The notes under the pieces are model-generated. The model was not told the origin of the DNA and searched no databases. It saw only the letters and a program-made list of their open reading frames with translations. Positions 34,933 through 64,000 of a stretch of 64,000 nt of DNA are shown here, piece by piece. The DNA is from a virus: positions 16,059-80,058 of IMG/VR virus record IMGVR_UViG_3300010389_003143. The stretch is one strand, 5' to 3'. How positions within the stretch are numbered: the first letter of the stretch is position 1; the number at the start of each line of letters is the position of its first letter. The translations under genes and the position numbers were made by a program.

Positions 34933-34934
34933 TA

Positions 34935-44439: not shown

Positions 44440-44441
44440 CG

Positions 44442-46793: not shown

Positions 46794-46815
46794 TTTCACT
46801 CCTTTGGAATAAAAG

Positions 46816-47343: not shown

Positions 47344-47344
47344 T

Positions 47345-47593: not shown

Positions 47594-48044
47594 TCATCTC
47601 CTCAACCGCTCTTTGTATTGCGGCTATGAACTCGGGGTCGTCAATCTCCTTGATCTGGGACAACGACTGACAGTGGAACAGACCCGTGTAGATCGCCCCG
47701 CAGTGCTCACAGACCTCCTCTTTTGGCCCCCGACGTGGAAGGTCTGCCAAGGATACCCCGACGTGCTTCTTGCCGGTAGGCTTCCCATCAGGGTCGATGC
47801 ACTTGGGACACGGCGGCAGAGCGGGATGCCCGTGCGCTTTCCCTCCGGTGTAGGTGACACCGGGCACCATCTTGTCGAGGTCAACGAGCTTACCAAAGCA
47901 GTTGTCGCACTCATCGACTACACCGGTTGGCATGAGAACAGTGTTGCCGTCCTCCGTCTTGCGAACCCTCTCGGGGTTGTCGATGCCAATGCCGACGATC
48001 TCGGTAGCAGACCACTGGATGCGGGGCTTGTCTTTCTCACTCAT
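47577..48044 (-). CDS. Hypothetical zinc-finger-like protein, 155 aa
   Basis: Begins MSEKDKPRIQWSATEIVGI after GGAGG. Three Cys pairs: ECDNCFGKL, PCPKCIDPD and VCEHCGAIY, with nearby histidines, suggest two zinc sites. The C-terminus is helical (EFIAAIQRAVEEMSDELE). No family recognised; it may bind nucleic acid. Part of GC-rich island III. Confidence 0.5.
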   Translation of the reverse strand: MSEKDKPRIQWSATEIVGIGIDNPERVRKTEDGNTVLMPTGVVDECDNCFGKLVDLDKMVPGVTYTGGKAHGHPALPPCPKCIDPDGKPTGKKHVGVSLADLPRRGPKEEVCEHCGAIYTGLFHCQSLSQIKEIDDPEFIAAIQRAVEEMSDELE

Positions 48045-48249
48045 CGGCCACCTCCTCCAAGTCCTCCCTACTGAACCAGTGGTACGGGAACGCCAGCTTC
48101 ACCATCCCGGCATAAGGCCCCCAAGGCGGACCCTCCTGCACGATGGGTTGTGGGCGACGGGTGGCCTCTTGGAGAGAGGGCGGAGAGTCCCAGATGACTT
48201 GCTTGACGAGATACCGCTTCTCGCTTGGCTTGGTTTTGATCTCACCCAT
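48037..48249 (-). CDS. Small hypothetical protein, 70 aa
   Basis: Begins MGEIKTKPSEKRYLVKQVI and has PSLQEATRRPQPIVQEG, then LAFPYHWFSREDLEEV. GC-rich; overlaps both neighbours by eight bases. No family recognised. Confidence 0.4.
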   Translation of the reverse strand: MGEIKTKPSEKRYLVKQVIWDSPPSLQEATRRPQPIVQEGPPWGPYAGMVKLAFPYHWFSREDLEEVADE

Positions 48250-48574
48250 CAGCCTTTCCTCCGATGCTGCGATAAGACGGGAAGGTCGGCGGCCACACCG
48301 GAGCGTCGGGATCCCACTGGCGCAGGAAGGTGTCGATGTTGGGCCAGTGCCGAACCCAAGCGTACTTGTCCTCGCCTCGGATCAACCCTGCGAGGGCACG
48401 GCAGGACTCGCCCGGATTTCCCGCGTCCACAGTGACGAGAATTGCCACCCCCGGCTTGGTGTTGTAGGCCATGTTGGAGCCGACGTTGACCTCGACAACC
48501 GGTGGACGGACATCGAGGGGGTCGGACACATCAAGCACCAAGAACAGGCTCATTTCAGTCGGGTGTTTTGCCAT
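48242..48574 (-). CDS. Hypothetical protein, 110 aa
   Basis: Begins MAKHPTEMSLFLVLDVSDP. Contains VAILVTVDAGNPGESCRAL, GEDKYAWVRHWPNIDTF and LRQWDPDAPVWPPTFPS. GC-rich, last upstream gene of island III. No family recognised. Confidence 0.45.
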   Translation of the reverse strand: MAKHPTEMSLFLVLDVSDPLDVRPPVVEVNVGSNMAYNTKPGVAILVTVDAGNPGESCRALAGLIRGEDKYAWVRHWPNIDTFLRQWDPDAPVWPPTFPSYRSIGGKADG

Positions 48575-49734: not shown

Positions 49735-51501
49735 TTAGTGCGGAAGCATTCCGCACTCTCTCATAGCATGAATAGTCATAGGGAAATCTCCCTGTTCCTC
49801 TACAAGTCTTAGCATCTCTGCTGCAACCTGACGAACTTCAAGCTGAGCATGCTCATCGTTTCTTAGTTTTTGAAAATGAGCAAAAGATCGCCAATTAAAC
49901 ATAATATCACAGGTAATTTGAATGCCATAAGGAAGATAAAACCTTGCGCTTTCCTTTGCCCGCTTTCTACTATAGCCAGCTTCTTCAAGCCTGGCAATAC
50001 AACTGTGATAATTTTCATAAGCCTGCCTTATAAAGGCTTCTAAGTTTTCTCGCTCAGATTCAGGCCAATCAACAGGGAGGTAATATTTATCTATCTTAAA
50101 CTCCTTATATCTCGCTGATTCTGCATTACAATTGTGTATTAGAAAGCCATTTGCAACATAGTTATGGGTCCCATCTACCTCTAGATCATAAACATCCTGC
50201 ACTCCGAGATACTCTACGCTAACTATCTGCTCATAGTCAAATGCCAGACGCCGCCCTTTTCTTGGCTTTCTTTTTTTAAAGACCTCTTTAACGTCCTCCT
50301 TCAAAAAACTTTGGGCAAAGGCTTCCTCTGAGGCGCGAGAGGAATGAATTTTTTTGTGGCAACCCGAACATACAGGGGCAAGATTATTATAATCTGTCGC
50401 CCTAGTCTTATCGACTGATACTGGAATAACATGGTGGCACACAAAATCCCTAGAACACCCTTCTGGGTCAATCTGAGCTTGACAAACATAATTAAATTTA
50501 CTCAAAAGGGCCGGCATCTGCTCTCTTGTCCAGTTTCCAACGGTAGCCCTCCAGATTTTATAATCTAAATCTGGATTTATATTTGGATTTACACCATTCT
50601 TTTGGCGATTCAACTTGTATCCATACTTTCCTTTGTTCCACGGAATATTTCCAGGCTTAAAATCCTTATTCATATCTTTTAGAAAGATTATATCATGTAT
50701 ATATCCCCATTTTTTAATAAGCTCGTATTTATATCCACTTATTTTGGCAACTTCTTTCCTGGTATATTTACCCTCATATTTACCCTCATATTTAGCCCAC
50801 CAATCTCTAAAGGTATATGGCTTTCCAGATACATTTATATTTATCCCGTTTACGGCGACCATATTATCTACATTAGATATGGTCGCCTTAGAACCAAAAA
50901 CTTCTACGCCAAGATACTCTCCAATTTCTACAAAGCCGTCGTCCCGAGAGTAAAACTTGTGATCTAATGTAGTTGATATTGTTCTTCCGGACTTTGTAGT
51001 AAACTTATAAACATCACTCTTACCGTTATAAAAAACCTTTGATATATAGCCTTTTTTTACAAGATTTGAATCATCTTGCTTAGTCCTGCATCGAACCGGC
51101 CTACCATACTGCCTTCTATACTCCTTTCCATTTTTAGACTTCGATAAGATTCCATTCTCATATTGATCATAGAGATCCTTTATCATCACCTTTCTTACTC
51201 CGCCACTGGGCTTTGGAATGTAAATCTCGGTATCACCAGTAACGCAATTCACCCCGGCTCGATGCTTCAAAAGATGAATATGGGTGGCGATATCAGTTGT
51301 AATAAGGAAGTGCAAGGATGATTTCTCAAAGGGTGTGTGATGACCTTCGCGAGCCAGCATATTTAAAAGCTTGCCCATTCTAGCTCGCTTTTTAGGATTT
51401 AAATCACGGCTGGTGCTTGTCCATGCAGAGAGGGCGTGCGTTTCGTCGCTCCCATAAGTTCCCATTAATTCTACGGTATTTTTTGTATTTACTTTGCTCA
51501 T
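49735..51501 (-). CDS. thyX: Flavin-dependent thymidylate synthase, interrupted by an intein
   Basis: A 588-residue precursor; the mature enzyme after removal of residues 86-457 is 216 residues, normal for ThyX. It makes dTMP from dUMP using FAD and methylene-tetrahydrofolate. The ThyX motif is read across the intein as LLKHRAGVN-CNAESARYKEF, a K-H-R-x(8)-S variant of RHR-x(7)-S. Other parts: LVELMGTYGSDE-like N-terminus, GHHTPFEKSSLHFLI, FNWRSFAHFQKLRND and AQLEVRQVAAEML, which are ThyX signatures. It works with dUTPase, NrdA/B and probably the dCMP deaminase at the right end. Confidence 0.93.
   Translation of the reverse strand: MSKVNTKNTVELMGTYGSDETHALSAWTSTSRDLNPKKRARMGKLLNMLAREGHHTPFEKSSLHFLITTDIATHIHLLKHRAGVNCVTGDTEIYIPKPSGGVRKVMIKDLYDQYENGILSKSKNGKEYRRQYGRPVRCRTKQDDSNLVKKGYISKVFYNGKSDVYKFTTKSGRTISTTLDHKFYSRDDGFVEIGEYLGVEVFGSKATISNVDNMVAVNGININVSGKPYTFRDWWAKYEGKYEGKYTRKEVAKISGYKYELIKKWGYIHDIIFLKDMNKDFKPGNIPWNKGKYGYKLNRQKNGVNPNINPDLDYKIWRATVGNWTREQMPALLSKFNYVCQAQIDPEGCSRDFVCHHVIPVSVDKTRATDYNNLAPVCSGCHKKIHSSRASEEAFAQSFLKEDVKEVFKKRKPRKGRRLAFDYEQIVSVEYLGVQDVYDLEVDGTHNYVANGFLIHNCNAESARYKEFKIDKYYLPVDWPESERENLEAFIRQAYENYHSCIARLEEAGYSRKRAKESARFYLPYGIQITCDIMFNWRSFAHFQKLRNDEHAQLEVRQVAAEMLRLVEEQGDFPMTIHAMRECGMLPH
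50131..51246 (-). mobile_element. Intein in ThyX carrying an HNH endonuclease
   Basis: A 372-residue intein, residues 86-457. It starts CVTGDTEIYIPKPSGG, has TTLDHKFYS (block B), ends YDLEVDGTHNYVANG and FLIHN before Cys458. Unlike the other inteins here its endonuclease is HNH-type: CQAQIDPEGCSRDFVCHH, VIPVSVDK and CSGCHKKIHSS. It sits inside the ThyX substrate-binding motif. Confidence 0.92.
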
Positions 51502-51507
51502 TTCACC

Positions 51508-51711
51508 TTACTTTTTAAGCTCTTCAGTTTCGAGATCTAAAGGCAAGCTTATTTCTGAGTAATAAAGATCAGAATAATGCTTAATCTCTTTTCTTAGCCT
51601 AGAGATTTCTTCTACTGCTTTTTCCAAATCATTTCTAATCAGCATTATATTCCACCTGTCCAGTGAATCGTCTAGGTGGGACTTTATCTCATCCAAATCA
51701 TCTTGAGTCAT
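51508..51711 (-). CDS. Small coiled-coil hypothetical protein
   Basis: The ATG at 51709-51711 (MTQDDLDEIKSHLDDSL) is preferred because GGGGAGGG lies upstream; the frame is open from 51750. Helical with a heptad stretch (LEKAVEEISRLRKEIKHY). No family recognised. Lies seven bases before thyX. Confidence 0.45.
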   Translation of the reverse strand: MTQDDLDEIKSHLDDSLDRWNIMLIRNDLEKAVEEISRLRKEIKHYSDLYYSEISLPLDLETEELKK

Positions 51712-52081
51712 TTTCATCCCTCCCCATCGATAAGGCCTTAGATTTTCCATCTTCGCCTATCCCGACAAATACTACCCGGTTGAACTCCGCAATTTCTTCC
51801 CCAGAAGATGCGTTAACCACTTTTGCATAGAAAGTTATGCTAGTCTTTCCTTTCTTTAAAAAAGAAACCTCTATCTGAACAATATCTCCTCGTGATGCTG
51901 AAGATATAAAGTTTATCTCAGATATATTTCTTGTAGCGCAGATGCTTCCCGTAAGTAGCCTTGCTTGCATTCCGCAAGCTTCATCAACCCATTTCATTAA
52001 ATTGCCGCCATGCAAGGTGCCATGAGCATTTAAATCTGGTTGCGTTACAAGGTATCTATAACTCCAATTTATATTTTTCAT
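51698..52081 (-). CDS. Acyl-CoA thioesterase (YciA-like hotdog fold)
   Basis: A 127-residue hotdog-fold protein. Catalytic region LNAHGTLHGGNLMKWVDEA, with the conserved G-x-LHGG and Asp in MKWVDEA, matches the YciA/acyl-CoA thioesterase family that hydrolyses short and medium acyl-CoA. Further strands: QIEVSFLKKGKTSITFYA and AEFNRVVFVGI. A single domain, so it would act as a multimer. An unusual gene for a phage; it could influence lipid or membrane metabolism during infection. Coupled to the gene downstream. Confidence 0.75.
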   Translation of the reverse strand: MKNINWSYRYLVTQPDLNAHGTLHGGNLMKWVDEACGMQARLLTGSICATRNISEINFISSASRGDIVQIEVSFLKKGKTSITFYAKVVNASSGEEIAEFNRVVFVGIGEDGKSKALSMGRDENDSR

Positions 52082-52096
52082 AATTAATATTTTAAA

Positions 52097-52657
52097 TTAA
52101 ATAATCTCATCAATTACGCCTAGTTTTAGGGCTTCATCGGCGCCCATATACCAGTCAACCTTCTTCTTCAGAATTTTCTTTAGCTCTTGCTCTGTGATTC
52201 TAGTCCTCTGAAGGGTGATGTCTTCAATTCTCTTCTGAAGCCTCTTCGTCTCCTTTAGCTTCTCCTCCATATCCTGAACCTTTCCGAAGAAACCGGTAGA
52301 TACTTGGTGATAAAGAGGGGTAGAAAGAGAGTAGCCAAAGCGCTTATGGCCGGAAATTAGAATCATAAATCCACAAGACATTGCTGCGCCAGTCACAATT
52401 GTATGAATTGGCGTTTGACTCTTCTCCATAACCCCAAGAAGGCCAAAGCACTGATAAACCTGCCCGCCATACGAATCAATGTATATCTTAATTGGAGAAG
52501 GCGAATAGCTTATTCCGTGAATAGAGTAAAGCTTCTCAAGATAGCTGTCATGCTCGTTGATATCAACGATGGCCTTCGTTAGGGCATTCATCGTTTTCTG
52601 CGTTACTTGGTCGGGCAGATATAGGTTTCTCCCCTTTGGGGTCGGTAGCGTGTCCAT
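52097..52657 (-). CDS. clpP: ClpP-like serine protease
   Basis: A 186-residue ClpP-fold protein. The catalytic serine is Ser94 in GAAMSCGFMIL (ClpP motif GxASMA), the histidine is His117 in TPLYHQVS; an acidic residue near VDWYMGADEALKLGVID completes the core. YIDSYGGQV (60-66) matches the ClpP helix-turn after strand 2. A phage ClpP may be a virion maturation protease (as in T4-related prohead proteases) or degrade host proteins; no ClpX partner is seen. AAAGGAG lies before the ATG. Confidence 0.85.
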   Translation of the reverse strand: MDTLPTPKGRNLYLPDQVTQKTMNALTKAIVDINEHDSYLEKLYSIHGISYSPSPIKIYIDSYGGQVYQCFGLLGVMEKSQTPIHTIVTGAAMSCGFMILISGHKRFGYSLSTPLYHQVSTGFFGKVQDMEEKLKETKRLQKRIEDITLQRTRITEQELKKILKKKVDWYMGADEALKLGVIDEII

Positions 52658-52738
52658 TTAAACTCCTTTTGTCTTTTTTGTGAAAATCACCATAATCAAA
52701 TGTGAGGGATATGTCCATAAAGAATTTTGAAGAGAAAC

Positions 52739-52939
52739 CTACTCCCTGTTCTGCTCGTATTTATCCCACAGAATTTCAAAAATATAATTTGCAATTGTTA
52801 ATAGCAAATGTAAAAAAAGAGTAAACCAAGTTGCGGACTTCACGTCTCCAGTAAATAAAAATATAGCCAAGTAAGTTAAGACAATTGATATAATTCTCCA
52901 TAAGATTATCTTCTTGACGAGAAGGCTTGCATCGCTCAT
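52739..52939 (-). CDS. DUF2061-like small membrane protein, 66 aa
   Basis: Begins MSDASLLVKKIILWRIISI with two hydrophobic helices (SIVLTYLAIFLFTGDV; TWFTLFLHLLLTIANYIF). The W-R at the start of helix 1, TGD-x-K-x-A between the helices and the E-x-x-WDKYEQ end fit the DUF2061 family of two-helix membrane proteins. Function unknown. Overlaps the upstream gene by four bases. Confidence 0.6.
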   Translation of the reverse strand: MSDASLLVKKIILWRIISIVLTYLAIFLFTGDVKSATWFTLFLHLLLTIANYIFEILWDKYEQNRE

Positions 52940-53535
52940 AGCAGCCCCATATCTTTGGCTTTATTTATAACGCATACCTCCAGGGAATCATTGCCTAAAG
53001 AGTAGGAGAGCGCATACTCCTGCAGCATTTTTAAATCTTTTAAATCTTCTATTTCGTGGAACTCAAATATGCTGGGAGCTGCTGCCTGCACCCATCGGAG
53101 TAGTTCCTCAATTGAACTTTCAGCCTTCTTTTTGGCAAGGAAGGCAGAATACATTCTTTCAAACTCATTGATCATGGAAGGAAGAAGGAAAAGTTGCGTG
53201 CCAGTAACTGACTTTTCACCGCGCCTAAACTTATAGTCAAACATCCAATTTATATAATTGTAAATCTTGACCGTTACCTCTTCTTTTATTTTGCTTTTTT
53301 CTTCTTTTGGAAGAAAGCTATAATTTTCTGGCGCTATAGTTTTAAAAAGCTTTGCGAAGTCACGACTCTCTTTTCCCTTACCGGGATCACCCTTCCATCT
53401 GACTAATCTAAAGCGCACACCATTTTTTTTCTCATATTTATGACAGAAGTAAGCCATAAGGGTTATGTGATTCCAGGTACTTTTAGGCTTAGAAATCCAT
53501 TCAGGTATATTTGAGTAAAATTCTTCTTGATTCAT
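52936..53535 (-). CDS. Hypothetical phage protein, 199 aa
   Basis: Begins MNQEEFYSNIPEWISKPKS and contains TWNHITLMAYFCHKYEK and RLVRWKGDPGKGKESRDFA. Mostly helical with many aromatic and charged residues; GKGKESRDF could bind DNA or phosphate. A C-terminal AKDMGLL. No family recognised. Cotranscribed with the UvsW-like helicase gene is unlikely because a promoter-like pair and a hairpin lie between them. Confidence 0.5.
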   Translation of the reverse strand: MNQEEFYSNIPEWISKPKSTWNHITLMAYFCHKYEKKNGVRFRLVRWKGDPGKGKESRDFAKLFKTIAPENYSFLPKEEKSKIKEEVTVKIYNYINWMFDYKFRRGEKSVTGTQLFLLPSMINEFERMYSAFLAKKKAESSIEELLRWVQAAAPSIFEFHEIEDLKDLKMLQEYALSYSLGNDSLEVCVINKAKDMGLL

Positions 53536-53544
53536 TCTTTCCCC

Positions 53545-53558
53545 GCCGATAGTTCGGC
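53545..53558 (-). promoter_or_regulatory. Hairpin next to the ribosome binding site of the 199-aa gene
   Basis: Minus-strand GCCGA-ACTA-TCGGC forms a 5-bp stem directly before GGGGAAAG and the ATG at 53535. It could expose or hide the ribosome binding site. Short stem; low confidence. Confidence 0.3.
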
Positions 53559-53567
53559 ATCAAGAAC

Positions 53568-53595
53568 GATATAATCAAAATATAGGCCCAGTCAA
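53568..53595 (-). promoter_or_regulatory. Candidate sigma70-type promoter
   Basis: Minus-strand TTGACT (53590-53595) and TATATC (53568-53573) are 16 bases apart, 33 bases before the 199-aa gene. This resembles a host-type -35/-10 pair in a short intergenic space. Not verified; AT-rich DNA produces such matches often. Confidence 0.35.
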
Positions 53596-53612
53596 CAAAT
53601 AAGCCAGGACGT

Positions 53613-56150
53613 TTATGCCCACTTTACGGGTCCTCGCTTGGGATATGACCTTAGGGCTTTGTTTTTCTGGATCTTTATATCAAACCCTGGCTCACTTTCG
53701 TAAACCTTGATTCTTGCCTCAGAATGATCTCTTAAATACTTACAATTATCAAAAAACTCAACGACAATAGCCTGGGTTTTCCCCTCGCTCTTTCTTATGA
53801 CTCGACCAATTCTCTGTAAGGCACGTCCAGATGACTTTCCAGATCCAGCAAGGATTAGGGCATCCAGCTCAGGTATGTCAACTCCCTGGTCGAATATCTT
53901 TGATGCTATCAGAATGTCCAGCTTACCATCTTTCATCTCCTGTATGGATTCCATGCGTATTTTTGATGTCTTTGCTCCATCTAGGAATTTTACCCTGAAA
54001 TCATCTGATAACCGGTCCATCAGAGCATCTCCGTGTCCTACTCTGACCACCAGGATGAGGACTTTTTTACCTTTGCTTACGAGCTTTTTGGCCGCCTTTA
54101 CTATTAGATCATTTCTATCATCATTTTCGACAATATAGTTCTTATATACGTCATGATAATTTTTGCCAACAGCCCTCATGACCGGTACATCTAAAAAGTA
54201 GATCTTTGGCTTTACTAGATAGTTGTTTTTTATCAAATAAGTAGCATTTATATCTACAATTTTTGGCCCAGATACAGCTTCAATTAAAATGTCATCGCCA
54301 GTATCTCTCCATGGCGTTCCTGAGAAAAGAAAACGATGTTTTGCCGAAACGCTTGCTCTATGAAGAAACTGAAGAGTTTCTGAAGCTGCATATTGGCACT
54401 CATCAAATATGAATAGTTGCGCCTCTTGAACCTTCTTTCTTACCATCGCCTTATTTAGAGCATTTATATGCTTTTTTGAATCTAAAGTGGTATCGTTATC
54501 TGTAATTTTGACCTTTTTATTGAAGGCCGATGCGGCAGACCAGATCGTCATTATGGTTACTTGCTTTGAAACATCGCATTCCCCGCCGCCGACTATGCCG
54601 CATTCTATACCGTAAGCAGATTCAATTGTTTTCTTCATCTGATAAAGAAGTTCAATACCAATAACATACACAATTGTTGGTATATTATATTTTGCAACAA
54701 CGGAAGATATAACGAAACTTTTACCAGAGTTATGAGTTACGGTAAAGTCAGATAACAAATATCTATTATCCCCATCAACTTTAAAGCCAAAATAATCGTC
54801 ATATCCAGCTTCTTCATAGGAAAATCCAGTTACTAGAACATCCTTTTTTTGCAATCTTTTTGTCGCCTTTTTTCTAGGAAGCTTACACGGAATTTCGCTT
54901 AAATCTCCAGATAGGCTGACTCTAAAGTAGTAGCCTTCTGCACCATTATTTGTGCAAATCTTTTTTTGTCTCGAAACATAAGCTGCAAAACCAAGGCTTC
55001 GTGCAACAAAAGCAAGATCCCTAGAAAGCCTCTCAGACTTAGAGATAAAATCATAACTCCTTCCATCGCAAGAACCATCCGCATCTAAGAGGCCAGCCAA
55101 AAGACTTAGTCTATCACTTCTATTTGAAGTTTTATAGTCTTGAGGAATAAATTTTGTTCCAGATCTAGTTTGGTGTAGCCCTTCTTTTCTTATTATATTT
55201 ATGAGCTTATTTTTGCCCTTATTTTTAAACCCAGTAGTGAAAAAATAAGTTAAACCATTTTTTCTTAGATTTAAGTCCAGCCTTTCCGCCTCATCTTTAC
55301 AGTAAGATATAATTTCTTCATCTACAGATGTTATTCCAATTGAATCGTGAAAGCTGCCATCACCAAGCAGTAGGCCCATAAAATATGGATCCATAGATAA
55401 TTGCTTTTTGGGAAAATCTACACCAACTCTAAATAGCTTTCTTATATGTTTACCATAATCGCTTAGCTTTTCCCATTCAGAAAATTTTATATCCTCAATA
55501 TTTCCGGCTAATTTATCACAAGCTCTACGACGAGTTCTTTTTAGGGAAAGTATATGCTCCTGGTTTATTACAAATGACTCACCCTTGGTAGGTATTATTC
55601 TTACCATCCTATCTTTTCCGCGACAGAGCTGCAGGACCCTTCTTGGCTTAGAGTCTGGACCCATAATACGATCACCAACGACTACTTCTTCCACCCTTTT
55701 TGTAGATCCATCATACATGAGCACTTCAGTGCCCCTTGCATGACAGCCCGTGGCCATCTTAATAATTCCGCTACCATTGCTATAGGCTGTTTTTACAGCG
55801 TTTAGCTGATATGCTCTGGGTTCAAAGTCACTATTTTTTTGAGGAACAGGGCTTCCATACTCTAGAGTCGGCCTTTTATCTACAATTGAATATTCAATAT
55901 TCTTGCTATTGAGAAATTCCTTGACCATAGCCAGCAGACCTATGGGGAATTTTCCGTTCTTTTGAAGAAGACGAACCTTTCCGTCCCACCCGCCATATTT
56001 CCCCTGACTTCCAAACCCACCTCGACCGCCGGCCATAAAGCTGTATCCAGGATGATCATAACTTAGCTTATTTGAAAGCTCTTTTACGTTCTCCTCGCTA
56101 ATTTGACCAATAAGCTGGCAGTTGACATTTTCTATTTTTATCTCTAGCAT
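53613..56150 (-). CDS. uvsW: UvsW-like SF2 helicase, interrupted by an intein in the Walker A motif
   Basis: An 845-residue precursor; without the intein (136-474) it is 506 residues, the size of T4 UvsW, a helicase that processes branched DNA and R-loops and shifts replication to recombination-dependent mode. N-terminal UvsW-type domain (LSNKLSYDHPGYSFMAGGR), then FEPRAYQLNAV (Q-motif region), IIKMATG-SGKSFVISS (Walker A split by the intein), LFIFDECQYA (DExx box), FLFSGTPWR (motif III) and QRIGRVIRKSEGK (motif VI). Basic C-terminal tail. The Walker A can only work after splicing. Confidence 0.92.
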   Translation of the reverse strand: MLEIKIENVNCQLIGQISEENVKELSNKLSYDHPGYSFMAGGRGGFGSQGKYGGWDGKVRLLQKNGKFPIGLLAMVKEFLNSKNIEYSIVDKRPTLEYGSPVPQKNSDFEPRAYQLNAVKTAYSNGSGIIKMATGCHARGTEVLMYDGSTKRVEEVVVGDRIMGPDSKPRRVLQLCRGKDRMVRIIPTKGESFVINQEHILSLKRTRRRACDKLAGNIEDIKFSEWEKLSDYGKHIRKLFRVGVDFPKKQLSMDPYFMGLLLGDGSFHDSIGITSVDEEIISYCKDEAERLDLNLRKNGLTYFFTTGFKNKGKNKLINIIRKEGLHQTRSGTKFIPQDYKTSNRSDRLSLLAGLLDADGSCDGRSYDFISKSERLSRDLAFVARSLGFAAYVSRQKKICTNNGAEGYYFRVSLSGDLSEIPCKLPRKKATKRLQKKDVLVTGFSYEEAGYDDYFGFKVDGDNRYLLSDFTVTHNSGKSFVISSVVAKYNIPTIVYVIGIELLYQMKKTIESAYGIECGIVGGGECDVSKQVTIMTIWSAASAFNKKVKITDNDTTLDSKKHINALNKAMVRKKVQEAQLFIFDECQYAASETLQFLHRASVSAKHRFLFSGTPWRDTGDDILIEAVSGPKIVDINATYLIKNNYLVKPKIYFLDVPVMRAVGKNYHDVYKNYIVENDDRNDLIVKAAKKLVSKGKKVLILVVRVGHGDALMDRLSDDFRVKFLDGAKTSKIRMESIQEMKDGKLDILIASKIFDQGVDIPELDALILAGSGKSSGRALQRIGRVIRKSEGKTQAIVVEFFDNCKYLRDHSEARIKVYESEPGFDIKIQKNKALRSYPKRGPVKWA
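54729..55745 (-). mobile_element. Intein in the helicase P-loop with LAGLIDADG endonuclease
   Basis: A 339-residue intein, residues 136-474. It begins CHARGTEVLMYDGSTKRVEE, block B is NQEHILSLK, the LAGLIDADG motifs are YFMGLLLGDGSFHD and LLAGLLDADGSCDG, and it ends SDFTVTHN before Ser475. Canonical ends. The insertion site GTG|SGKS is a known preference of inteins for ATP-binding loops. Confidence 0.92.
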
Positions 56151-56213
56151 TTTATTAATTTAAGAATGGCAACAAAACATGTCAACTATTACAGCAGGAA
56201 ATATTGCAGAACG

Positions 56214-57614
56214 CTACTTCTTATTCTTTCTCCTATCTATGAGGGAAGTTCTTCCGCTTGACCTCTGCATTCTGCTGAAAGCAGAATTTTTCTTCTTAAT
56301 CTTCCTATTAAGCTCTCTGCTCGTTGCGTTTACTTTGTCTTCCTCAAAATCAAGCGTCATAGTTGCTGCACTATTCTTTTCTTTTGACTCAGCAAGAAGT
56401 GCCTGCTCTTCGCTTTCTCTTTTCAGATTTTCAACTCGGTCCTTTGGAAGCCCAAGACCTGCAAACCAGCTGTAAATCTTAATTGAATCACCATCTGATG
56501 GCGTTGAATAAACGCCCTGGAAGATAGAGGCCCCATTAGTCTGCTGAGAAATCATGTGGAAGCAGTAATTGATGTTCAGAGCAGGAAGCCTCTCTAGCGC
56601 AGACTCTGGTCCTGTAATTATAACGCCGCCTGCCCTGGTCTGGCTTAAATCAAAGCCAGATGCAAGCATATTTCCGTCTAAGCTATTCATTACAGCTTCT
56701 GCTAGAGCAGTCTCCTCCATGTAATCATCAACCTCTATAACGCCGTAAGTTGAGCAGTTTCCTGCTGCAATAATCTTTGCAAAATCGCTGGGATCTAGCG
56801 AAGTAAACTTTGACGGACTACAAGTTAGCGTATTAAATACATGTAGTGGCTCGATAATGGCTTCATTTGAAACTTCCCAGAACTTTGACTGACTGAGGTC
56901 AGCATAAATCTGCTCAATTCTGGCATTATCAACAACAATAAGGTTTACAACCATCTTGTTAACTGCCATCCTTGCTAGTCGGGATAGCGTCTCTATTGAA
57001 TTCTTCTTGGACTGAGCATCTTCAGTCGCCTTAGGAAGAACATAGATAACTCCAACCTGTATTCCTGACTCAAATAGCATTGAAACCATTGTTTCAACAG
57101 AGCTTGAGCCGGTTCCACCGCCGCCCGATACCGCGACATAGACCATGTTGTTGCCGTCTACAATAGGATCGAGGAATTCGGCAAGCTGATCCTGAGATTC
57201 TTCGAAAATCTCTCTTCCGAGATCTAAGTCTTTGCCAGTTCCGCCCAGGCTCCCCTCTAGCAGCAGCTTCTGGTGCCCCGGAACTTCTATGAACTCAAGA
57301 TCTTGAGCGGAAGTATTTACGACGCCTACATCGTAACCTTTCTTGTGGAATACCTCCGCCAATCTTGAGCCAGCTTGGCCCACGCCAACTACTGCAAACT
57401 CTATACTTACGGATCTTTTAGATATAACCTGCACTTCCTCCTCCCAATCTGTTTTTTCGGTCTTCTTTGAGGCGAGCATATTGTTAAGCTTATTCAGAAC
57501 GTCCGGATCCATGCCGTCAGAGCTGCTATCCGCTTCTTCCTCTTCGCCTTCTCCAAAGGCTTCCATTAGACTTTTGTTCTCGGCTTCAATCTGCTCTTTT
57601 GTTTTTTTAGCCAT
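56214..57614 (-). CDS. Tubulin/FtsZ-like GTPase
   Basis: Read from the internal ATG at 57612-57614 (MAKKTKEQIEAENKSLMEA), which follows GAGGAAA at good spacing, this is a 466-residue tubulin-superfamily GTPase. After a ~70-residue acidic N-terminal extension come FAVVGVGQAGSRLAEVF (T1 loop) and the signature GGGGTGSSS (164-172 of this form), then VGVIYVLPKATEDAQ and a GTPase-like C-terminus, ending in a basic tail (KKKNSAFSRMQRSSGRTSL). FtsZ/tubulin homologues in large phages form filaments that position phage DNA or replication centres. Which subfamily it belongs to (FtsZ, TubZ or PhuZ) needs a tree. Confidence 0.75.
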   Translation of the reverse strand: MAKKTKEQIEAENKSLMEAFGEGEEEEADSSSDGMDPDVLNKLNNMLASKKTEKTDWEEEVQVISKRSVSIEFAVVGVGQAGSRLAEVFHKKGYDVGVVNTSAQDLEFIEVPGHQKLLLEGSLGGTGKDLDLGREIFEESQDQLAEFLDPIVDGNNMVYVAVSGGGGTGSSSVETMVSMLFESGIQVGVIYVLPKATEDAQSKKNSIETLSRLARMAVNKMVVNLIVVDNARIEQIYADLSQSKFWEVSNEAIIEPLHVFNTLTCSPSKFTSLDPSDFAKIIAAGNCSTYGVIEVDDYMEETALAEAVMNSLDGNMLASGFDLSQTRAGGVIITGPESALERLPALNINYCFHMISQQTNGASIFQGVYSTPSDGDSIKIYSWFAGLGLPKDRVENLKRESEEQALLAESKEKNSAATMTLDFEEDKVNATSRELNRKIKKKNSAFSRMQRSSGRTSLIDRRKNKK

Positions 57615-58619
57615 TACATTTTCCTCATAATATATGTTCAGTTGTTTAAGAATTTCTTCCGAAGAAGTTACTGCGTGTGGCACGACTCCTGTTCCATTAT
57701 ACGAAATTACTCTGCAAAGATAATCCGTATGGATGTTCATGGGATCTACGTCTGTAGTTATTATATCGCACCCGAATTTTTTCGCCTCATAAAATGCCAA
57801 ACCAAGCCCTTCCCTTGTAGAGGGGGCTATTAAGCAATCTGACTTTCTATATATATTATATATCTCACTTTTGCTTAAAATATCATTTATTATCATAATA
57901 TTATTAGATTTTTCAGCAATAGTCCGCTCTTTATCTGACAATCTTCCGGTTATTATTAATTTTGAATTTTCGACCTTATCTGAGAACGCAGAAAAAGCCC
58001 TTAAGACGTTCTCCGTATTCTTTTGAGAGAATGATGGATTTAATGATGCCTGATGATAGAATGTAAACTCTCCCTCTGACTTTTTAAACTCATCCAGATG
58101 ATCATCTGCATCATTCGCATAATCCCAAGCTGTCTCATATACAGTTTCTTCTGGGAATAATCTAGACGCCGTCTTTGTTAGGGATATTATACCATCGAAT
58201 TTTGAATAAGAACCTCTTTTTAGATGGCTTAAGTCAACCCACTCTGGCATGGGTATGTCGTAAATCTTGGTCCCGCCAGACCTCTTTATTCGATCAACCC
58301 AGTCTGCCGTTGGCATAAAAGTTTCAAGAGAAAATATAATATCTATTTTATTCCTTGCAGCGAAAGTTACTATATTATTCCTGTTGTATCTGTTAACCTC
58401 AACTATATTGAGGTTATTTAAAAGATTTTTATCGCTACGATCGGGGTAAAATGGAGCAAATCTCTGGTTTACCTTTCTATACTTTTCCTTAGGGAAAAGG
58501 TAGACTTCGTTGTTCTTGGAAAGCTCCTTGTAAAGAGATTTGCCCAAATAAAACAACCCTGATTCAAATAAATATGTCTTTATTAAGATTCTCTTATTTT
58601 TCAAATTTACTAAATTCAT
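56214..58619 (-). CDS. Glycosyltransferase frame fused without a stop to the tubulin/FtsZ-like gene
   Basis: One open frame of 801 codons. Residues 1-335 form a GT4-like glycosyltransferase: MNLVNLKNKRILIKTYLFE, DWVDRIKRSGGTKIYDIPM, QASLNPSFSQKNTENVLRAF and the nucleotide-sugar motif REGLGLAFYEA with Glu270 and Glu278, then DIITTDVDP. The usual C-terminal ~30 residues are replaced by ENVMAKK, the start of the tubulin gene. Either the protein is a real fusion, or the glycosyltransferase lost its stop codon and two products are made. The start overlaps the GT2 gene by 26 bases. See the finding on this. Confidence 0.6.
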   Translation of the reverse strand: MNLVNLKNKRILIKTYLFESGLFYLGKSLYKELSKNNEVYLFPKEKYRKVNQRFAPFYPDRSDKNLLNNLNIVEVNRYNRNNIVTFAARNKIDIIFSLETFMPTADWVDRIKRSGGTKIYDIPMPEWVDLSHLKRGSYSKFDGIISLTKTASRLFPEETVYETAWDYANDADDHLDEFKKSEGEFTFYHQASLNPSFSQKNTENVLRAFSAFSDKVENSKLIITGRLSDKERTIAEKSNNIMIINDILSKSEIYNIYRKSDCLIAPSTREGLGLAFYEAKKFGCDIITTDVDPMNIHTDYLCRVISYNGTGVVPHAVTSSEEILKQLNIYYEENVMAKKTKEQIEAENKSLMEAFGEGEEEEADSSSDGMDPDVLNKLNNMLASKKTEKTDWEEEVQVISKRSVSIEFAVVGVGQAGSRLAEVFHKKGYDVGVVNTSAQDLEFIEVPGHQKLLLEGSLGGTGKDLDLGREIFEESQDQLAEFLDPIVDGNNMVYVAVSGGGGTGSSSVETMVSMLFESGIQVGVIYVLPKATEDAQSKKNSIETLSRLARMAVNKMVVNLIVVDNARIEQIYADLSQSKFWEVSNEAIIEPLHVFNTLTCSPSKFTSLDPSDFAKIIAAGNCSTYGVIEVDDYMEETALAEAVMNSLDGNMLASGFDLSQTRAGGVIITGPESALERLPALNINYCFHMISQQTNGASIFQGVYSTPSDGDSIKIYSWFAGLGLPKDRVENLKRESEEQALLAESKEKNSAATMTLDFEEDKVNATSRELNRKIKKKNSAFSRMQRSSGRTSLIDRRKNKK

Positions 58620-59316
58620 GCTTTAAAACTCGTACTTTAGACGCCATTCTGATTATCTCATTATTGACCCTTCCTGCATGAACTGAGTTTTCGCTATTCG
58701 TAAGCGATCCGCCATTTTTTATAACAGAGTAATAATAAAGAACTTTGTGGATATATTTTATTGGATACTTCTCCACCACACGCAACCACATATCATAATC
58801 TTCCGATATCCATAAAGATTCATCAAAGAATCCTACGTCATCAAAAACCTCCCTCTTTATCGTTGTCGATCCCGATGCAACTAAATTCTGCCTATACATT
58901 AGAGGATAGTTTATTTTAATTGGACGACTGTAGAACGGCCTCATCACCTTTGTTCTGTTGTATATTATTTTATAATTTCCACAGGTCATTGCTATGTCGC
59001 CATCTTTTCTAAACTCTTCGACGCTATAATAGAGCTTTTCCTTTGCCATTATATCGTCTGCATCTAATAGCGAGATGAGATCCGCATCGGTCGATTTAAT
59101 GCCAAGATTTCTTGCCGCCGATGGTCCAGAATTTTTATCTGTTTTCAAAAGTTTTACCTTAGGATAAAGCTTTGTTATAGCGCTAATATTTTCTGTAGAA
59201 CAATCGTCAATCACAGTTATCGAGAAATTCTTGTATGACTGCTGCAAACAGCTTTCTATTGCCTGCTTTAGATAAGGACCTGGATTGTAAGCCGGAATGA
59301 TTATTTCTACTTTCAT
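58594..59316 (-). CDS. Family 2 glycosyltransferase
   Basis: A 240-residue GT-A fold enzyme. IIIPAYNPGPYLKQAIESCL (nucleotide-binding start), VIDDCSTENI, NSGPSAARNLGIKS, and LLDADDIM (the DxD metal site) are the family 2 hallmarks. The C-terminal ISEDYDMWLRVVEKYPI supplies the acceptor-side region (ED-x-W). It transfers a sugar from a nucleotide donor, probably to a surface glycan or virion protein. It sits in a sugar-related block with a second glycosyltransferase, a mannose-phosphate-isomerase cupin and GDP-mannose dehydratase. Confidence 0.88.
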   Translation of the reverse strand: MKVEIIIPAYNPGPYLKQAIESCLQQSYKNFSITVIDDCSTENISAITKLYPKVKLLKTDKNSGPSAARNLGIKSTDADLISLLDADDIMAKEKLYYSVEEFRKDGDIAMTCGNYKIIYNRTKVMRPFYSRPIKINYPLMYRQNLVASGSTTIKREVFDDVGFFDESLWISEDYDMWLRVVEKYPIKYIHKVLYYYSVIKNGGSLTNSENSVHAGRVNNEIIRMASKVRVLKHEFSKFEK

Positions 59317-59717
59317 TTTTGTTGCAACTCTTGATCGCCCTGCTTTATTTTACCCGATTGCTTTTGGCCAGGGCAAAGAGTTTGAATCAAAATAATGCAT
59401 ACAGAAAGAAATAAGCATAAAATTGTTTTTCGATCTATTGTTTCGCCCTTCATGAGATAAGAGAGGATCGCAAAAATTATAACGCCGATTCCAAAGCTTA
59501 CCAGCTTTGGCGGCCACAGATTTCCATCAAAATACTCCACAAGATACTTCCAGCCATAATAAAACAATGCACTGCATGGGATCGAGAAAGTCATTATTGT
59601 AAATAAGGGGCGCTTATCCCACCAATCATATATAAATTGTAGATTCACCTGCATCCAAGCAACTATATTTGCTATGATCAGAAGGACGAGTGAATATAAT
59701 AGAGTGTTTCCGCTCAT
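59313..59717 (-). CDS. Polytopic membrane protein, 134 aa
   Basis: Begins MSGNTLLYSLVLLIIANIV; about four hydrophobic segments (for example FGIGVIIFAILSYLMKG and TILCLFLSVCIILIQTL), tail KQGDQELQQK. Lies between the glycosyltransferase and sugar genes (four-base overlap with GT2), so it could be a membrane partner for glycan export or anchoring. No family recognised. Confidence 0.5.
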   Translation of the reverse strand: MSGNTLLYSLVLLIIANIVAWMQVNLQFIYDWWDKRPLFTIMTFSIPCSALFYYGWKYLVEYFDGNLWPPKLVSFGIGVIIFAILSYLMKGETIDRKTILCLFLSVCIILIQTLCPGQKQSGKIKQGDQELQQK

Positions 59718-59786
59718 CTTAATAAATCCATCGGAAACTGCTAATGAAAAAGGCAGCTAGCGGATAAATGCTCACGATCTCCACAG

Positions 59787-60128
59787 CTACCTCCCATAGT
59801 CATCTTGTATTCTAACTACATCATCCAGCTCAGTTGTCGAAACTTCCATTAGCTTTACATCGCCATCCGGAGCGCAGAATCTATGAATCAGCCCCGGACT
59901 AATATGCATTGATTCGCCCGGATTTAACATAATTTCTTGCAGCGAATCCTCCGAATCACCGCAAACCAGCAAAAGCCTTCCCTCTAGAACTCGGATAGTC
60001 TCTTCCTTTTCCCTGTGAAGCTGAAGAGAAAGTCTTTTTCCGCTGTTTATATGGATGATTTTCCCGGCATATCTATCTGTTTTTGCCCAAAGCTCCTCAT
60101 ATCCCCACGGCTTTTTCGTTATGCTCAT
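59787..60128 (-). CDS. Mannose-6-phosphate isomerase-type cupin
   Basis: A 113-residue cupin. PWGYEELWAKTDRYAGK at the N-terminus, SLQLHREKEETIRVLEG with metal-binding His/Glu, HISPGLIHRFCAP, and EVSTTELDDVVRIQDDYGR at the C-terminus match type II mannose-6-phosphate isomerase / GDP-mannose pyrophosphorylase C-domains. It interconverts fructose-6-phosphate and mannose-6-phosphate and supplies precursors for GDP-mannose. It stands alone, without the pyrophosphorylase domain, so it may work with host enzymes. Probably in a glycan pathway with GDP-mannose dehydratase at 61-64 kb. Confidence 0.85.
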   Translation of the reverse strand: MSITKKPWGYEELWAKTDRYAGKIIHINSGKRLSLQLHREKEETIRVLEGRLLLVCGDSEDSLQEIMLNPGESMHISPGLIHRFCAPDGDVKLMEVSTTELDDVVRIQDDYGR

Positions 60129-60152
60129 AAAATCATCTCGCTTTTAATATAA

Positions 60153-60992
60153 TCACTTCTCCAACCATGCCAGCACACTTGCATGATCTATTGAAAGCTT
60201 CGCCATAAATATCTGCGAGTAAGTCCTAGTCCTACTCTTCCAAGTTGTCTTTACTTTGCTCTTCCAATCTTTAGTATCAGCAGTGCGCAAAGGCCCGAGG
60301 CCAGCAAAGCCAACGCCATCTAATCCGAAACCTGCAGTATTTGATTCAAGAGTCAAAACCTGATCGGTTGCCTGATCATAATCGATTACGAGCCAGCTAT
60401 GGCCTCTTGGCCATCTTGAGAAGCTCTGTATTAGATAAACTCCGTCTATCGGGAGGGCTCCTTGAGGCATTATTTGGCCAACACCCCATTCGGACGTGAC
60501 AGCAGGCCCATAGCCTCTGTAGATCGATTCTGTAGCCCCCTTTGCGACCTGCCACTCCTTCCACTGGTCTACCGAGAATGGTATGCCAAAACCATTGCCT
60601 ATTAAATATGAAGTAAACATTGTGCAGTTTGTTTTATCTTCGCCCAAGAATCTCGACGGCAAAAAGTCTACGCCCGGAGGAAACGTCGGAACCTGCGCAT
60701 CGGTTAGGTCGTAAGTTGCACTTTGAGCTGAGGTTAAAAGCGGATAAAATTTATCCCAATCATATAAAGCGCCAGCTGCATTTTGTGATGAAGCCAGCAG
60801 TTTTGCCCAAGTTGCAGCTCCAACTACCCCATCATCCAAAAGACCCTCAGTCGCTTGAAAATGTTTTACCAGCCCTTTTGTTTTTGGGCCGAAATCTCCA
60901 TCTACCAAGCATGAAAGGCCATGCTTATTAAGCGATTCTTGGCATAACTTCACATCAGCACCTGATGATCCAAGCTTAATTGTGCCAGGCAT
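60153..60992 (-). CDS. Peptidoglycan-binding CHAP/NlpC-like hydrolase
   Basis: Start is the ATG at 60990-60992 (MPGTIKLGSSGADVKLC), with GGAG six bases upstream; a TTG four codons earlier is also open. Residues 5-65 form a peptidoglycan-binding domain (SLNKHGLSCLVDGDFGPKT, LVKHFQATEGLLDDG). The C-terminal half contains NCTMFTSYLIG and RGHSWLVIDYDQ, with Cys and His suitable for an NlpC/P60 or CHAP-type cysteine peptidase, and TLESNTAGFG. A likely endolysin or virion-associated hydrolase, differing from the M15-type enzyme at 3882. No export signal, so release would need a holin. Confidence 0.7.
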   Translation of the reverse strand: MPGTIKLGSSGADVKLCQESLNKHGLSCLVDGDFGPKTKGLVKHFQATEGLLDDGVVGAATWAKLLASSQNAAGALYDWDKFYPLLTSAQSATYDLTDAQVPTFPPGVDFLPSRFLGEDKTNCTMFTSYLIGNGFGIPFSVDQWKEWQVAKGATESIYRGYGPAVTSEWGVGQIMPQGALPIDGVYLIQSFSRWPRGHSWLVIDYDQATDQVLTLESNTAGFGLDGVGFAGLGPLRTADTKDWKSKVKTTWKSRTRTYSQIFMAKLSIDHASVLAWLEK

Positions 60993-61062
60993 TTCATCTC
61001 CCAAGGTAAATTAACTATCTATATTTAGACTAAATAATAGATTGCTGTTTAGCAGCGCTCTA

Positions 61063-62002
61063 TCATCTAAATAGGTCATCAAGATCTGCCCTATACATCT
61101 CTTCGAGCAATGCTCTCCAGGAATACTGCGGCTCCCAGCCTAATTCGTCCCTTATTTTAGATGGATTACCCAGCAAAAAGGGCACTTCTGATGGGCGCAT
61201 AAATCTCTGATCTGCTTCATAAACTTCATCTGGGTCCAACTCTGCCAGGCCGCATACAAATTCCAACATTTCACGAATAGTCGCTCCGCTTCCAGTGGCA
61301 ACAAGATAGTCTTCTGGCCTATCGGCCTGAAGCATCATCCACATTGCTCGCACATAATCCTTAGAGTGACCCTCATCCCTAAATGCTTCAAGATTTCCCA
61401 TCTTAAGAGTCTCTTGAAGCCCAAGCTTAACCGAGGCGACACCTCTGGTTATTTTTCTTGTGGCAAAATCAAACCCCCTTCTTGGAGAAGAGTGGTTATG
61501 CAGAATGCCGTTGCAGGCAAATAGGCCATAAGCTTCTCTGTAATTCTTCACCGCCCAAAAGGCGGCCAACTTTGCGACTCCATATGGAGATCTTGGATGA
61601 AAAGCAGAAGACTCATCGTAGCCTTTTTCGGGGCAAGCCAGGCCTCCAAACAGCTCTGAGGTACTAGCCTGATAATAACGAGTATACGGAGAGATTTGAC
61701 GTATCATTTCTAGCTGCCCAATAACCGCCCTTGCATCCACATCAAAAGTAGATAAGGGCTCTCTAAAAGACTGCCAGACATGGCTCATTGCGGCTAGGTT
61801 GTAAAATTCGTGCGGCTTATGATCATAAAGAACTCTTGAGATAAGAGTCTGATCTGTTATGTCGCCTTCAAATAATTTAAAATTTTTGTTGCCAAGCAAA
61901 TGATCAATGTTCATATACTTAACAAGGGTTCCATCCCTCAAGGCAAGTCCTACAACCTTATAGCCTTTCTCTAGGAGAAGTTCGCTGTATGATGCATCAC
62001 TA
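61063..62002 (-). pseudogene. gmd: GDP-mannose 4,6-dehydratase homologue lacking its 5' end
   Basis: The frame keeps most of a short-chain dehydratase: LFEGDITDQTLISRVLYD, NLAAMSHVWQSF, TSELFGG, the catalytic Y-x3-K in SPYGVAKLAAF, NHSSPRRGFDFATRK and RFMRPSEVPFLLGNP. Upstream the reading stays open to about 62002 (DASYSELLLEKGYKVVGLAL), but no start codon of AUG type exists and the N-terminal nucleotide-binding GxxGxxG (normally TGITGQDGSY) is missing. The similarity breaks at the edge of the inverted repeat 62000-62059. Initiation from TTG at 61939-61941 would give a protein without its cofactor site. Probably inactive; a start elsewhere or a rearrangement cannot be excluded. Confidence 0.7.
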
Positions 62003-62059
62003 ATGACATTTATATATGCTAATATTTAATATAGTAATAGCAAAAGTAAATGTCATTAG
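62000..62059. repeat. 13-bp perfect inverted repeat with 34-bp spacer
   Basis: CTAATGACATTTA at 62000-62012 and TAAATGTCATTAG at 62047-62059. The left arm ends where GDP-mannose-dehydratase similarity of the minus-strand gene begins; the right arm overlaps the ribosome binding site of the HNH gene. Could be a recombination footprint, an endonuclease or recombinase site, or a fold-back junction. Confidence 0.65.
62019..62027 (+). promoter_or_regulatory. Promoter-like motif CTAATATTT, copy 5
   Basis: Plus-strand GCTAATATTTA, inside the spacer of the inverted repeat, 41 bases upstream of the HNH gene start at 62068. Same extended motif as copy 4. Confidence 0.4.
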
Positions 62060-62067
62060 GAGGTTTT

Positions 62068-62796
62068 ATGGACTCTAGAATAATTAAAAAAATTCTTAAA
62101 AAAGAGTGCGAACAATGTGGTAAATTATTTGAGGTTAGAGATACGGCAAGATTAAGAGTAAAAAGGTTTTGTAGCAGAAGTTGTACCTCAAGGTTTATTA
62201 ATACTGGAAGAAAAAGATCTGAAGAGTTTAAGAAAAATTTATCAGAAAAATTAAGTGGAAAAAAAAATCCATTTTATGGGAGAAAGCACTCTGAAGAGAC
62301 TAAAAAAAAGTTATCTGAATCAAACAAGGGTTCTTATATAGATAAATATGGAGAGGAAAGGGCTCAGCTAATAAAAGCTAAATTATCTGACGCTCAAACT
62401 GGAACCAGAAATGGGTTTTATGGAAAGAAGCATTCTGAGGAATCTAAAGAATTAATATCTAGAAATCACGCAGATGTATCGGGCTCAAATAATCCCATGT
62501 ATAGAAATGGTCAAAAAATTACTGGAGAAAAAAATGGATCTTGGAAGGGTGGAGTATCATATATAGAAAGGCCAAAAGAATGGAATGATGAGCTTAAAAC
62601 TACAATTAGAAAAAGAGATGGCTTTTCATGTGCATTATGTCAAAAAAACGGATATGATGTTCATCATATTGATTATAATAAATTTAATAATTGTAAAGCA
62701 AACTTAATAACATTATGTAGAAGCTGTCATGCAAAAACAAATTTTAATCGAGAGATATGGAAAAAGATATTATTAGAGGTGATGAATGAAAAATAA
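62068..62796 (+). CDS. HNH homing endonuclease with NUMOD-type DNA-binding repeats
   Basis: The ATG at 62068 (MDSRIIKKILKKECEQCGK) has AGGAGG four bases upstream and is preferred to the ATG at 62050. Residues 11-42 form a zinc-finger-like start (ECEQCGKLF, FCSRSCTSRF). Three repeats follow: KNPFYGRKHSEETKKKL, RNGFYGKKHSEESKEL and NNPMYRNGQK, the NUMOD3-type DNA-binding module. The C-terminal HNH nuclease is RKRDGFSCALCQ, VHHIDYNK and CRSCHAKTN. The gene overlaps the downstream dehydratase by 11 bases and probably moves with it. Typical of free-standing phage homing endonucleases. Confidence 0.85.
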   Translation: MDSRIIKKILKKECEQCGKLFEVRDTARLRVKRFCSRSCTSRFINTGRKRSEEFKKNLSEKLSGKKNPFYGRKHSEETKKKLSESNKGSYIDKYGEERAQLIKAKLSDAQTGTRNGFYGKKHSEESKELISRNHADVSGSNNPMYRNGQKITGEKNGSWKGGVSYIERPKEWNDELKTTIRKRDGFSCALCQKNGYDVHHIDYNKFNNCKANLITLCRSCHAKTNFNREIWKKILLEVMNEK

Positions 62797-63784
62797 TAGA
62801 CAGCTTAGAGTCATATTGACCGGTGTGGCAGGCCAAGATGGGTCATACCTGGCAGAATATTTAATTAAGCGAGGGTACTTCGTCTACGGTGTATCTCGTC
62901 GTAAGTCCGTTAACCAGGGTCATGAAAACATTGAACACCTTATTGATAATGACTCATTTCAATTATTAGAGGGTGACATTACCGATTCCACTTTTATCAG
63001 TCGCATTATTCATGACATCAAACCTCATGAATATTACAGCTTAGCTTCTCAGAGCCATGTAGGATACAGCTTTAAAAATCCACTTGATACTTTTAGAGTT
63101 ACTGGCGAAGCAGTTATTATGCAACTTGAGATGATTCGACATTACTCACCTGCAACACGCTTTTATCAAGCCAGTACCTCTGAGCTATTTGGAGGCTTGG
63201 ACTGTCCTAAGTCTGGTTATAGCGAAAACACGCCATTTCATCCACGCTCTCCATATGCTGTAGCCAAAGCTGCTGCCTTCTATGCAGTTCAGAATTATAG
63301 AGAAGCATATGGGCTTCACGCTTCAAATGGAATCTTATTTAATCACAGCAGCCCTCGTCGTGGTCATGATTTCGCTACTAGAAAGATGACCAGGGGCGTT
63401 GCCAGGATTAAGCTTGGCCTGCAAGATGCTTTAAAGATGGGCAACTTAGAAGCTGTCAGAGACGAGGGTCACGCTTACGATTACGTCAGGGCGATGCACC
63501 TAATATTGCTTCAGGATAAGCCTGATGATTATGTTATTGCTACAGGCAAGAGTGCTAGCATCCGTCAAATGTTAGAGCATATTTGCAATATAGCTGGGCT
63601 TAAGATTGAAGACGTATATGAAATGGATCAAAGGTTTATGCGCCCGTCAGATGTTCCATTCTTGCTTGGTGACGCCACTAAAGCACGAGAAATTTTAGGT
63701 TGGACTCCTGAGTATGACTGGAAAAAACTTCTAACTGAAATGTACCAAAATGATTATGCTGAAATATCATCGGATGAAGAATGA
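62786..63784 (+). CDS. gmd: GDP-mannose 4,6-dehydratase
   Basis: A 332-residue short-chain dehydratase with an intact cofactor site TGVAGQDG at 12-19, which is missing in the copy at 61063. Further motifs: LLEGDITDSTFIS, SQSHVGYSFKNP, TSELFGG, catalytic Y-x3-K in SPYAVAKAAAF, NHSSPRRGHDFATRK and RFMRPSDVPFLLGDA. It makes GDP-4-keto-6-deoxymannose for fucose- or rhamnose-type sugars. The ATG overlaps the HNH stop, with AGAGGTG as ribosome binding site. It reads on the opposite strand to its homologue, and its codon usage appears slightly different. The next gene overlaps its stop by four bases (ATGA). Confidence 0.92.
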   Translation: MKNNRQLRVILTGVAGQDGSYLAEYLIKRGYFVYGVSRRKSVNQGHENIEHLIDNDSFQLLEGDITDSTFISRIIHDIKPHEYYSLASQSHVGYSFKNPLDTFRVTGEAVIMQLEMIRHYSPATRFYQASTSELFGGLDCPKSGYSENTPFHPRSPYAVAKAAAFYAVQNYREAYGLHASNGILFNHSSPRRGHDFATRKMTRGVARIKLGLQDALKMGNLEAVRDEGHAYDYVRAMHLILLQDKPDDYVIATGKSASIRQMLEHICNIAGLKIEDVYEMDQRFMRPSDVPFLLGDATKAREILGWTPEYDWKKLLTEMYQNDYAEISSDEE

Positions 63785-63882
63785 AAGAAAAACATATTCA
63801 AATTAGAATCGAGCAATGCCTATCTTTAGCCAAAGCATCAAACTGCCCTAGAAGAAAATTCGGGGCACTTCTGAATTTATAG
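63781..63882 (+). CDS. 5' fragment of a dCMP deaminase-like gene, interrupted
   Basis: Starts by ATGA overlap with the dehydratase stop. Residues 1-31 (MKEKHIQIRIEQCLSLAKAS, then NCPRRKFGALL) match the N-terminus of dCMP/cytidylate deaminases, whose next residues would be VDP. Instead the frame reads NL and stops at 63882. An intron, homing endonuclease insertion, frameshift or assembly join could explain this. Only ~75 real bases follow before the adapter; they contain a possible ATG at 63929 after GAGG. Confidence 0.6.
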   Translation: MKEKHIQIRIEQCLSLAKASNCPRRKFGALLNL

Positions 63883-63957
63883 TCAAAAAATATATCAATA
63901 TTTTGAATAAGATTGAATGAGGTTAATATGTTATATTCTTTAGTAAATACATTATAT

Positions 63958-64000
63958 CTGTCTCTTATACACATCTGACGCTGCCGACGACTCCTTACGT
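63958..64000 (+). other. Illumina Nextera adapter contamination
   Basis: From 63958 the sequence is CTGTCTCTTATACACATCT (reverse complement of the Tn5 mosaic end) then GACGCTGCCGACGA (rest of the Nextera Read 1 adapter) then CTCCTTAC, the reverse complement of the i5 index GTAAGGAG (S505/N505), then GT, the beginning of the P5 side. This is untrimmed sequencing adapter; genomic sequence ends near 63957. Confidence 0.97.

Follow-up and report, generated by a model that had tools for sequence, protein, structure and literature searches.

An in-frame fusion of a glycosyltransferase and a TubZ-like GTPase, with a conserved internal start, in a group of large environmental phages

Does a reading frame that runs from a glycosyltransferase straight into a tubulin/FtsZ-like GTPase encode one protein or two, and how did it come about? 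The question is raised by a locus in the 64,000-nucleotide stretch of viral DNA analysed here (the window), whose source record is an 80-kb metagenomic virus fragment. A first-pass annotation had described an 801-codon stop-free frame joining a glycosyltransferase to a GTPase with the motif GGGGTGSSS, and both the open reading frame and its Pfam domains bear this out. The annotation gave no strand; the frame lies on the minus strand, running from 58619 to 56214. According to Pfam, a GT4-type glycosyltransferase is followed by a TubZ/FtsZ-like GTPase that occupies residues 336-801, and the DNA at the junction reads TAT TAT GAG GAA AAT GTA ATG GCT (Table 1). Judged by sequence, the locus is a fusion of a glycosyltransferase and a tubulin-like GTPase, shared by related large phages from the environment.

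Table 1. Features of the fusion locus in the window. Numbers beginning with L denote loci of relatives.
Feature	Position	Strand	Basis or remarks
Glycosyltransferase-TubZ fusion ORF, 801 codons	56214..58619	-	Same architecture in L011, L002, L003, L004, L006, L008
GT4-type glycosyltransferase domain, residues 1-335, EX7E at E270/E278	57615..58619	-	Pfam PF00534, PDB profile matches
TubZ N-terminal extension, ~67 residues, the inter-domain linker	57414..57614	-	Model mc545b1dd09f5, residues ~338-405
TubZ/FtsZ-like GTPase, 466 aa from internal ATG	56214..57614	-	PF00091, PF22453, TubZ fold match
Internal Shine-Dalgarno GAGG, 8-nt spacer and GTPase ATG, within the fused frame	57612..57629	-	Duplex energy
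Upstream family-2 glycosyltransferase	58594..59316	-	Pfam PF00535, E 3.7e-30; overlaps fusion start by 26 nt

The enzyme half of the frame appears to be a complete GT4 protein. Its Glycos_transf_1 domain spans residues 198-294 (E 6e-14, 52.4 bits, cut-off 26.4), a PDB profile search returned GT4 enzymes such as 2jjm, and the two acidic residues of the EX7E motif are invariant in 14 sequences; domain and motif together place it in GT4. The first-pass annotation had suspected that the glycosyltransferase ends short. A truncated enzyme is ruled out, because the separate glycosyltransferases of unfused orthologues finish at most a few residues before or after this position and the modelled domain is whole. 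In this model, the glycosyltransferase is well ordered (pLDDT mostly 80-96) and its last helix, at residues 320-337, reaches the join.

The second half (P0003) matches both Tubulin (1.6e-12, 48.5 bits, cut-off 33) and TubZ-like_C (6.4e-08, 33.1 bits, cut-off 26). A glycine-rich G-box and a TubZ-like C-terminal domain thus assign it to the Tubulin/FtsZ superfamily as a TubZ-like member, and its closest solved fold is that of Bacillus cereus TubZ (4ei7, E 8e-23, TM 0.79 on target length). The glycine-rich nucleotide-binding core is mostly invariant in 15 sequences. In the same set, D274 and P275 of the DPSD motif are invariant and D277 nearly so; the acidic residues of the catalytic T7 loop are present if, by analogy with FtsZ, DPSD is taken as T7. 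A comparison of the window with L011 gives dN/dS values of 0.13 (glycosyltransferase) and 0.03 (TubZ), at a saturated dS of ~2. These values and the conserved active sites indicate that purifying selection acts on both parts.

The structure prediction for the fusion shows two folded domains joined by a linker of mostly low confidence, which holds two predicted helices and extends to about residue 405, where the GTPase fold starts. The linker corresponds to TubZ's own N-terminal extension and is found in unfused orthologues too. A prohead-protease-like site (LxE|A) was seen in it by eye, but it occurs only in the window, L002, and L003 and was dropped because it is not conserved. Among viral structures, the closest is that of a stand-alone FtsZ-like protein of 452 aa from an uncultured phage (37% identity), and none of the top matches listed for the fusion model in the viral structure library is a tubulin-glycosyltransferase protein.

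To place the join among related phages, a comparison that the first-pass annotation had proposed as a check, relatives were collected from IMG/VR, scanned with the GTPase and with alignments built on it, and from one scan of GTDB genomes. They comprise 18 loci, four of them 100% duplicates that were not counted as separate evidence; single-sequence scans with L008 and L006 added nothing new. Six distinct relatives are fused in frame, without a stop and with an internal Shine-Dalgarno sequence, at 55-81% identity over the whole ORF. Separate genes were found in seven more distant relatives (L010, L012, L013, L014, L015, L017, and L018). In six of these, the end of the glycosyltransferase gene and the start of the GTPase gene share 8-23 nt in different frames, the glycosyltransferase stop lying beyond the GTPase ATG, and in L012 a 91-bp gap and a true intervening stop lie between the genes. 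The frame offset is +1 in five of the overlapping loci and +2 in L014, and L012 is nominally +1 across its gap. The most distant locus, L019 (44% in its best segment), has no GT4 gene and carries a sugar-nucleotide-epimerase-like gene directly upstream.

The annotation had named two outcomes that would count against its reading, namely an assembly error and close relatives with a stop. The window's nearest relatives are the fused members and the separate state appears only in more distant ones, so the second outcome is not what we found. As to the first, the window comes from a metagenomic fragment, in which two genes could be joined by a sequencing or assembly error, but the join is common to seven distinct, non-identical genomes. 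We therefore reject an error as exceedingly improbable. A single instance of the join would be unsurprising, since about one in three such junctions would be in frame and a few stop-free codons are highly likely. The in-frame join exceeds chance because seven distinct genomes share it even though synonymous sites are saturated in the closest pairs.

Most simply, the ancestral state would be two overlapping, translationally coupled genes, an arrangement that relatives still show. A net one- or two-base change at the overlap would bring both genes into one frame. The spacer of L010 has one T more than that of the fused L006. The annotation had offered either a fusion or a lost junction giving a fusion plus a free GTPase. 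The comparison supports a combination of these readings, in which small changes at the overlap take the place of the loss of an intervening stop. Programmed +1 slippage at the run of Ts in L010 and L013 could possibly give some fusion in these unfused relatives. The fused members form a weakly supported group in the GTPase tree (53/82) and no group in the glycosyltransferase tree (p-AU 0.126; concatenation p-AU 0.058), and one origin, two origins, or a loss in L010 and L013 are all compatible with these trees.

Whether selection maintains the join bears on a rival explanation, in which translational coupling yields the fusion as a tolerated by-product: the locus would supply free TubZ and an active glycosyltransferase to which TubZ is incidentally attached, and the join itself would have no function. 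The unfused overlapping versions in six relatives agree with this, as do the single-base change that could switch between states and the compatibility of the trees with a reversion of L010 and L013 to separate genes. In addition, another junction of the operon, between the family-2 and GT4 glycosyltransferases, was compared in five fused genomes. It overlaps by 26, 20, 11, and 11 nt in four of them and is a 212-nt gap in the other; its offset is +1 in four of the five although no fusion occurs there. This junction holds its offset without fusion, and hence a frame can persist by descent alone. On the other side, the join is free of stops and frame changes in all seven fused genomes although their synonymous divergence is saturated, and a polymerising domain on every glycosyltransferase molecule is unlikely to be neutral. 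A rough neutral estimate for the absence of any frame-changing indel ranges from 0.45 to <0.001, depending on the assumed rates. Altogether, these data are suggestive only of selection, rather than coupling plus shared ancestry, as the force that keeps the join, and we consider a functionless by-product unlikely but a serious contender.

The internal start is the second conserved feature of the locus. The annotation had pointed to an in-frame internal ATG with a well-placed Shine-Dalgarno sequence, and this proved correct: the ATG is at 57614, preceded by TATGAGGAAAATGTA, and the Shine-Dalgarno sequence sits within the final glycosyltransferase codons. In the window, the duplex energy of this start is -6.3 kcal/mol versus -2.5 for the start of the glycosyltransferase. 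An internal ATG with a Shine-Dalgarno sequence (-6.0 to -8.1 kcal/mol) is found in 14 of 14 loci, fused or unfused, and good upstream signals are also present in L003, L008, L014, L015, L017, and L018. Among the fused genomes, the spacer measures either 5 or 8 nt, a difference of 3 nt that keeps the frame. In L003, AAGGA replaces GAGGA, so that a different residue is encoded and the signal is kept. The locus thus has the hallmark of a nested in-frame pair, a conserved same-frame internal start with its own Shine-Dalgarno sequence. A second in-frame ATG with GAGG lies ~30 codons into TubZ in L004 (6043) and L006 (6028), at ENEALM, and represents a possible third start.

We saw no sigma-70-like excess in the region in a search that recognises promoters of this type, and TATAAATA, which is enriched in the phage, is absent from the glycosyltransferase gene; both results are consistent with a single message. 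A GC3 step at the internal start, considered as a sign of separate expression, is clear in the window and L011 and small or absent elsewhere, and was not used. The Shine-Dalgarno sequence in 14 loci and the lack of a recognised internal promoter make it likely that both the fusion and free TubZ are produced, of which the free 466-aa GTPase is probably the more abundant, although initiation at the internal ATG may prove weak in the natural host. The 801-aa fusion might instead be the only product made in quantity, with the internal ATG a relic of the separate genes. The open frame means that any translated glycosyltransferase yields fusion. However, the Shine-Dalgarno sequence is retained in all seven fused genomes, even where its residue has changed, and in the window it is the stronger of the two start signals; we regard a fusion-only locus as improbable.

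Of the 13 relatives with a GT4 gene, 12 have a homologue of the family-2 glycosyltransferase upstream of it; the exception, L006, either lacks one or has one that was not recognised. A UvsW-type helicase follows downstream in every contig that is long enough, and sugar-nucleotide genes (GDP-mannose-dehydratase-like, cupin) are near the locus in most relatives. Furthermore, a glycosyltransferase-profile scan found this GT4 subfamily in viral contigs solely at these TubZ loci (16/16), which is the main reason to think that the two proteins work together. Glycosyltransferases and the helicase are the conserved immediate neighbours; no TubR was recognised among the identified neighbours. No substantial centromere-like repeat array (tubC) was found beside the gene; only short repeats of 2-3 copies occur in 50000-64000. 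Two GDP-mannose-4,6-dehydratase-like paralogues lie on opposite strands (61063-61941 and 62786-63784); an HNH-like ORF (62050-62796) separates the two.

Several features elsewhere in the window deserve mention. An operon at 31259-37964 encodes phage SpoVR, DUF444 (YeaH-like), and PrkA kinase proteins; SpoVR and PrkA are each split by an intein-like insert, that of SpoVR also with a LAGLIDADG domain. By eye, similar inserts were noted in genes resembling ribonucleotide reductase, ThyX, and UvsW-type helicase (27527-30244, 49735-51501, and 53613-56150), for a total of about five. The helicase of L011 has 506 aa versus 845 in the window, consistent with L011 being without the insert. Two patches (43000-44500 and 46000-48500) reach 57-66% GC in surroundings of ~36-40% and hold ORFs unlike the rest, possibly a recent acquisition or a chimera. 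The T4-late-promoter-like TATAAATA occurs at 14 sites in the window versus 5.5 expected, and 0 of 100 shuffles were as high.

Taken as a whole, we favour, with moderate confidence, a nested in-frame pair that makes a fusion and a free TubZ and derives from overlapping, coupled genes. The upstream start would give the 801-aa glycosyltransferase-linker-TubZ protein, and ribosomes initiating within the frame, at ATG 57614, would give the free GTPase from this one message. Free TubZ may then polymerise and occasional fusion subunits co-assemble, carrying glycosyltransferases along the filament or holding the filament where the glycosyltransferase is; the product ratio and the co-assembly are inferred from sequence. 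That the fusion tethers the filament is a tentative proposal. It is rather doubtful that the filament carries its own glycosyltransferase, with minority fusion subunits anchoring or distributing sugar transfer in a ratio set by internal initiation. The fused state could be inherited without selection and seven relatives manage without it, which counts against the nested-pair reading.

A phage tubulin physically linked to glycan synthesis was unreported in the open-access literature that we searched, which held no glycosyltransferase-tubulin fusion, and this domain pairing was absent from the databases searched. The GT4 partner, present at every locus found except L019, provides a first functional lead for the TubZ-like proteins of this group. 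In addition, a conserved operon with fused and unfused relatives offers a natural experiment on how coupled overlapping genes become fusions, and on the effect of a fused subunit upon the filament.

Among known systems, Bacillus TubZ (4ei7, 2xka) is the best match in both solved fold and profile and shares the TubZ-like C-terminal domain. Identity is ~20-23%, however, and the phage protein has an extra N-terminal region of ~65 residues and the glycosyltransferase fusion. Unlike in type III partition (TubZ-TubR-tubC), there is no centromere-like repeat array alongside. As in the nucleus-forming jumbo phages with PhuZ, a large phage encodes a tubulin-like GTPase, and there is a weak PHROG match (phrog_4733); PhuZ-type structural matches are weaker than those to Bacillus TubZ, one PhuZ record showing 11% identity. 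The sole match in the GenBank phage collection is the FtsZ-like gp138 of Bacillus phage G (24% identity), itself a stand-alone gene of 376 codons with no annotated glycosyltransferase adjoining. In terms of gene arrangement, the closest likeness is to the nested C/Nu3 genes of phage lambda, in which a capsid protease contains an in-frame internal scaffold. There, as predicted here, one frame encodes an enzyme that continues into a self-assembling protein, and an internal start supplies the latter on its own; because the shorter product self-assembles, it can draw in the longer one by way of the region they have in common. The proteins are unrelated, those of the phage locus being a glycosyltransferase and a tubulin-like GTPase. 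The domain pairing appears to be new, in a gene arrangement of a known kind.
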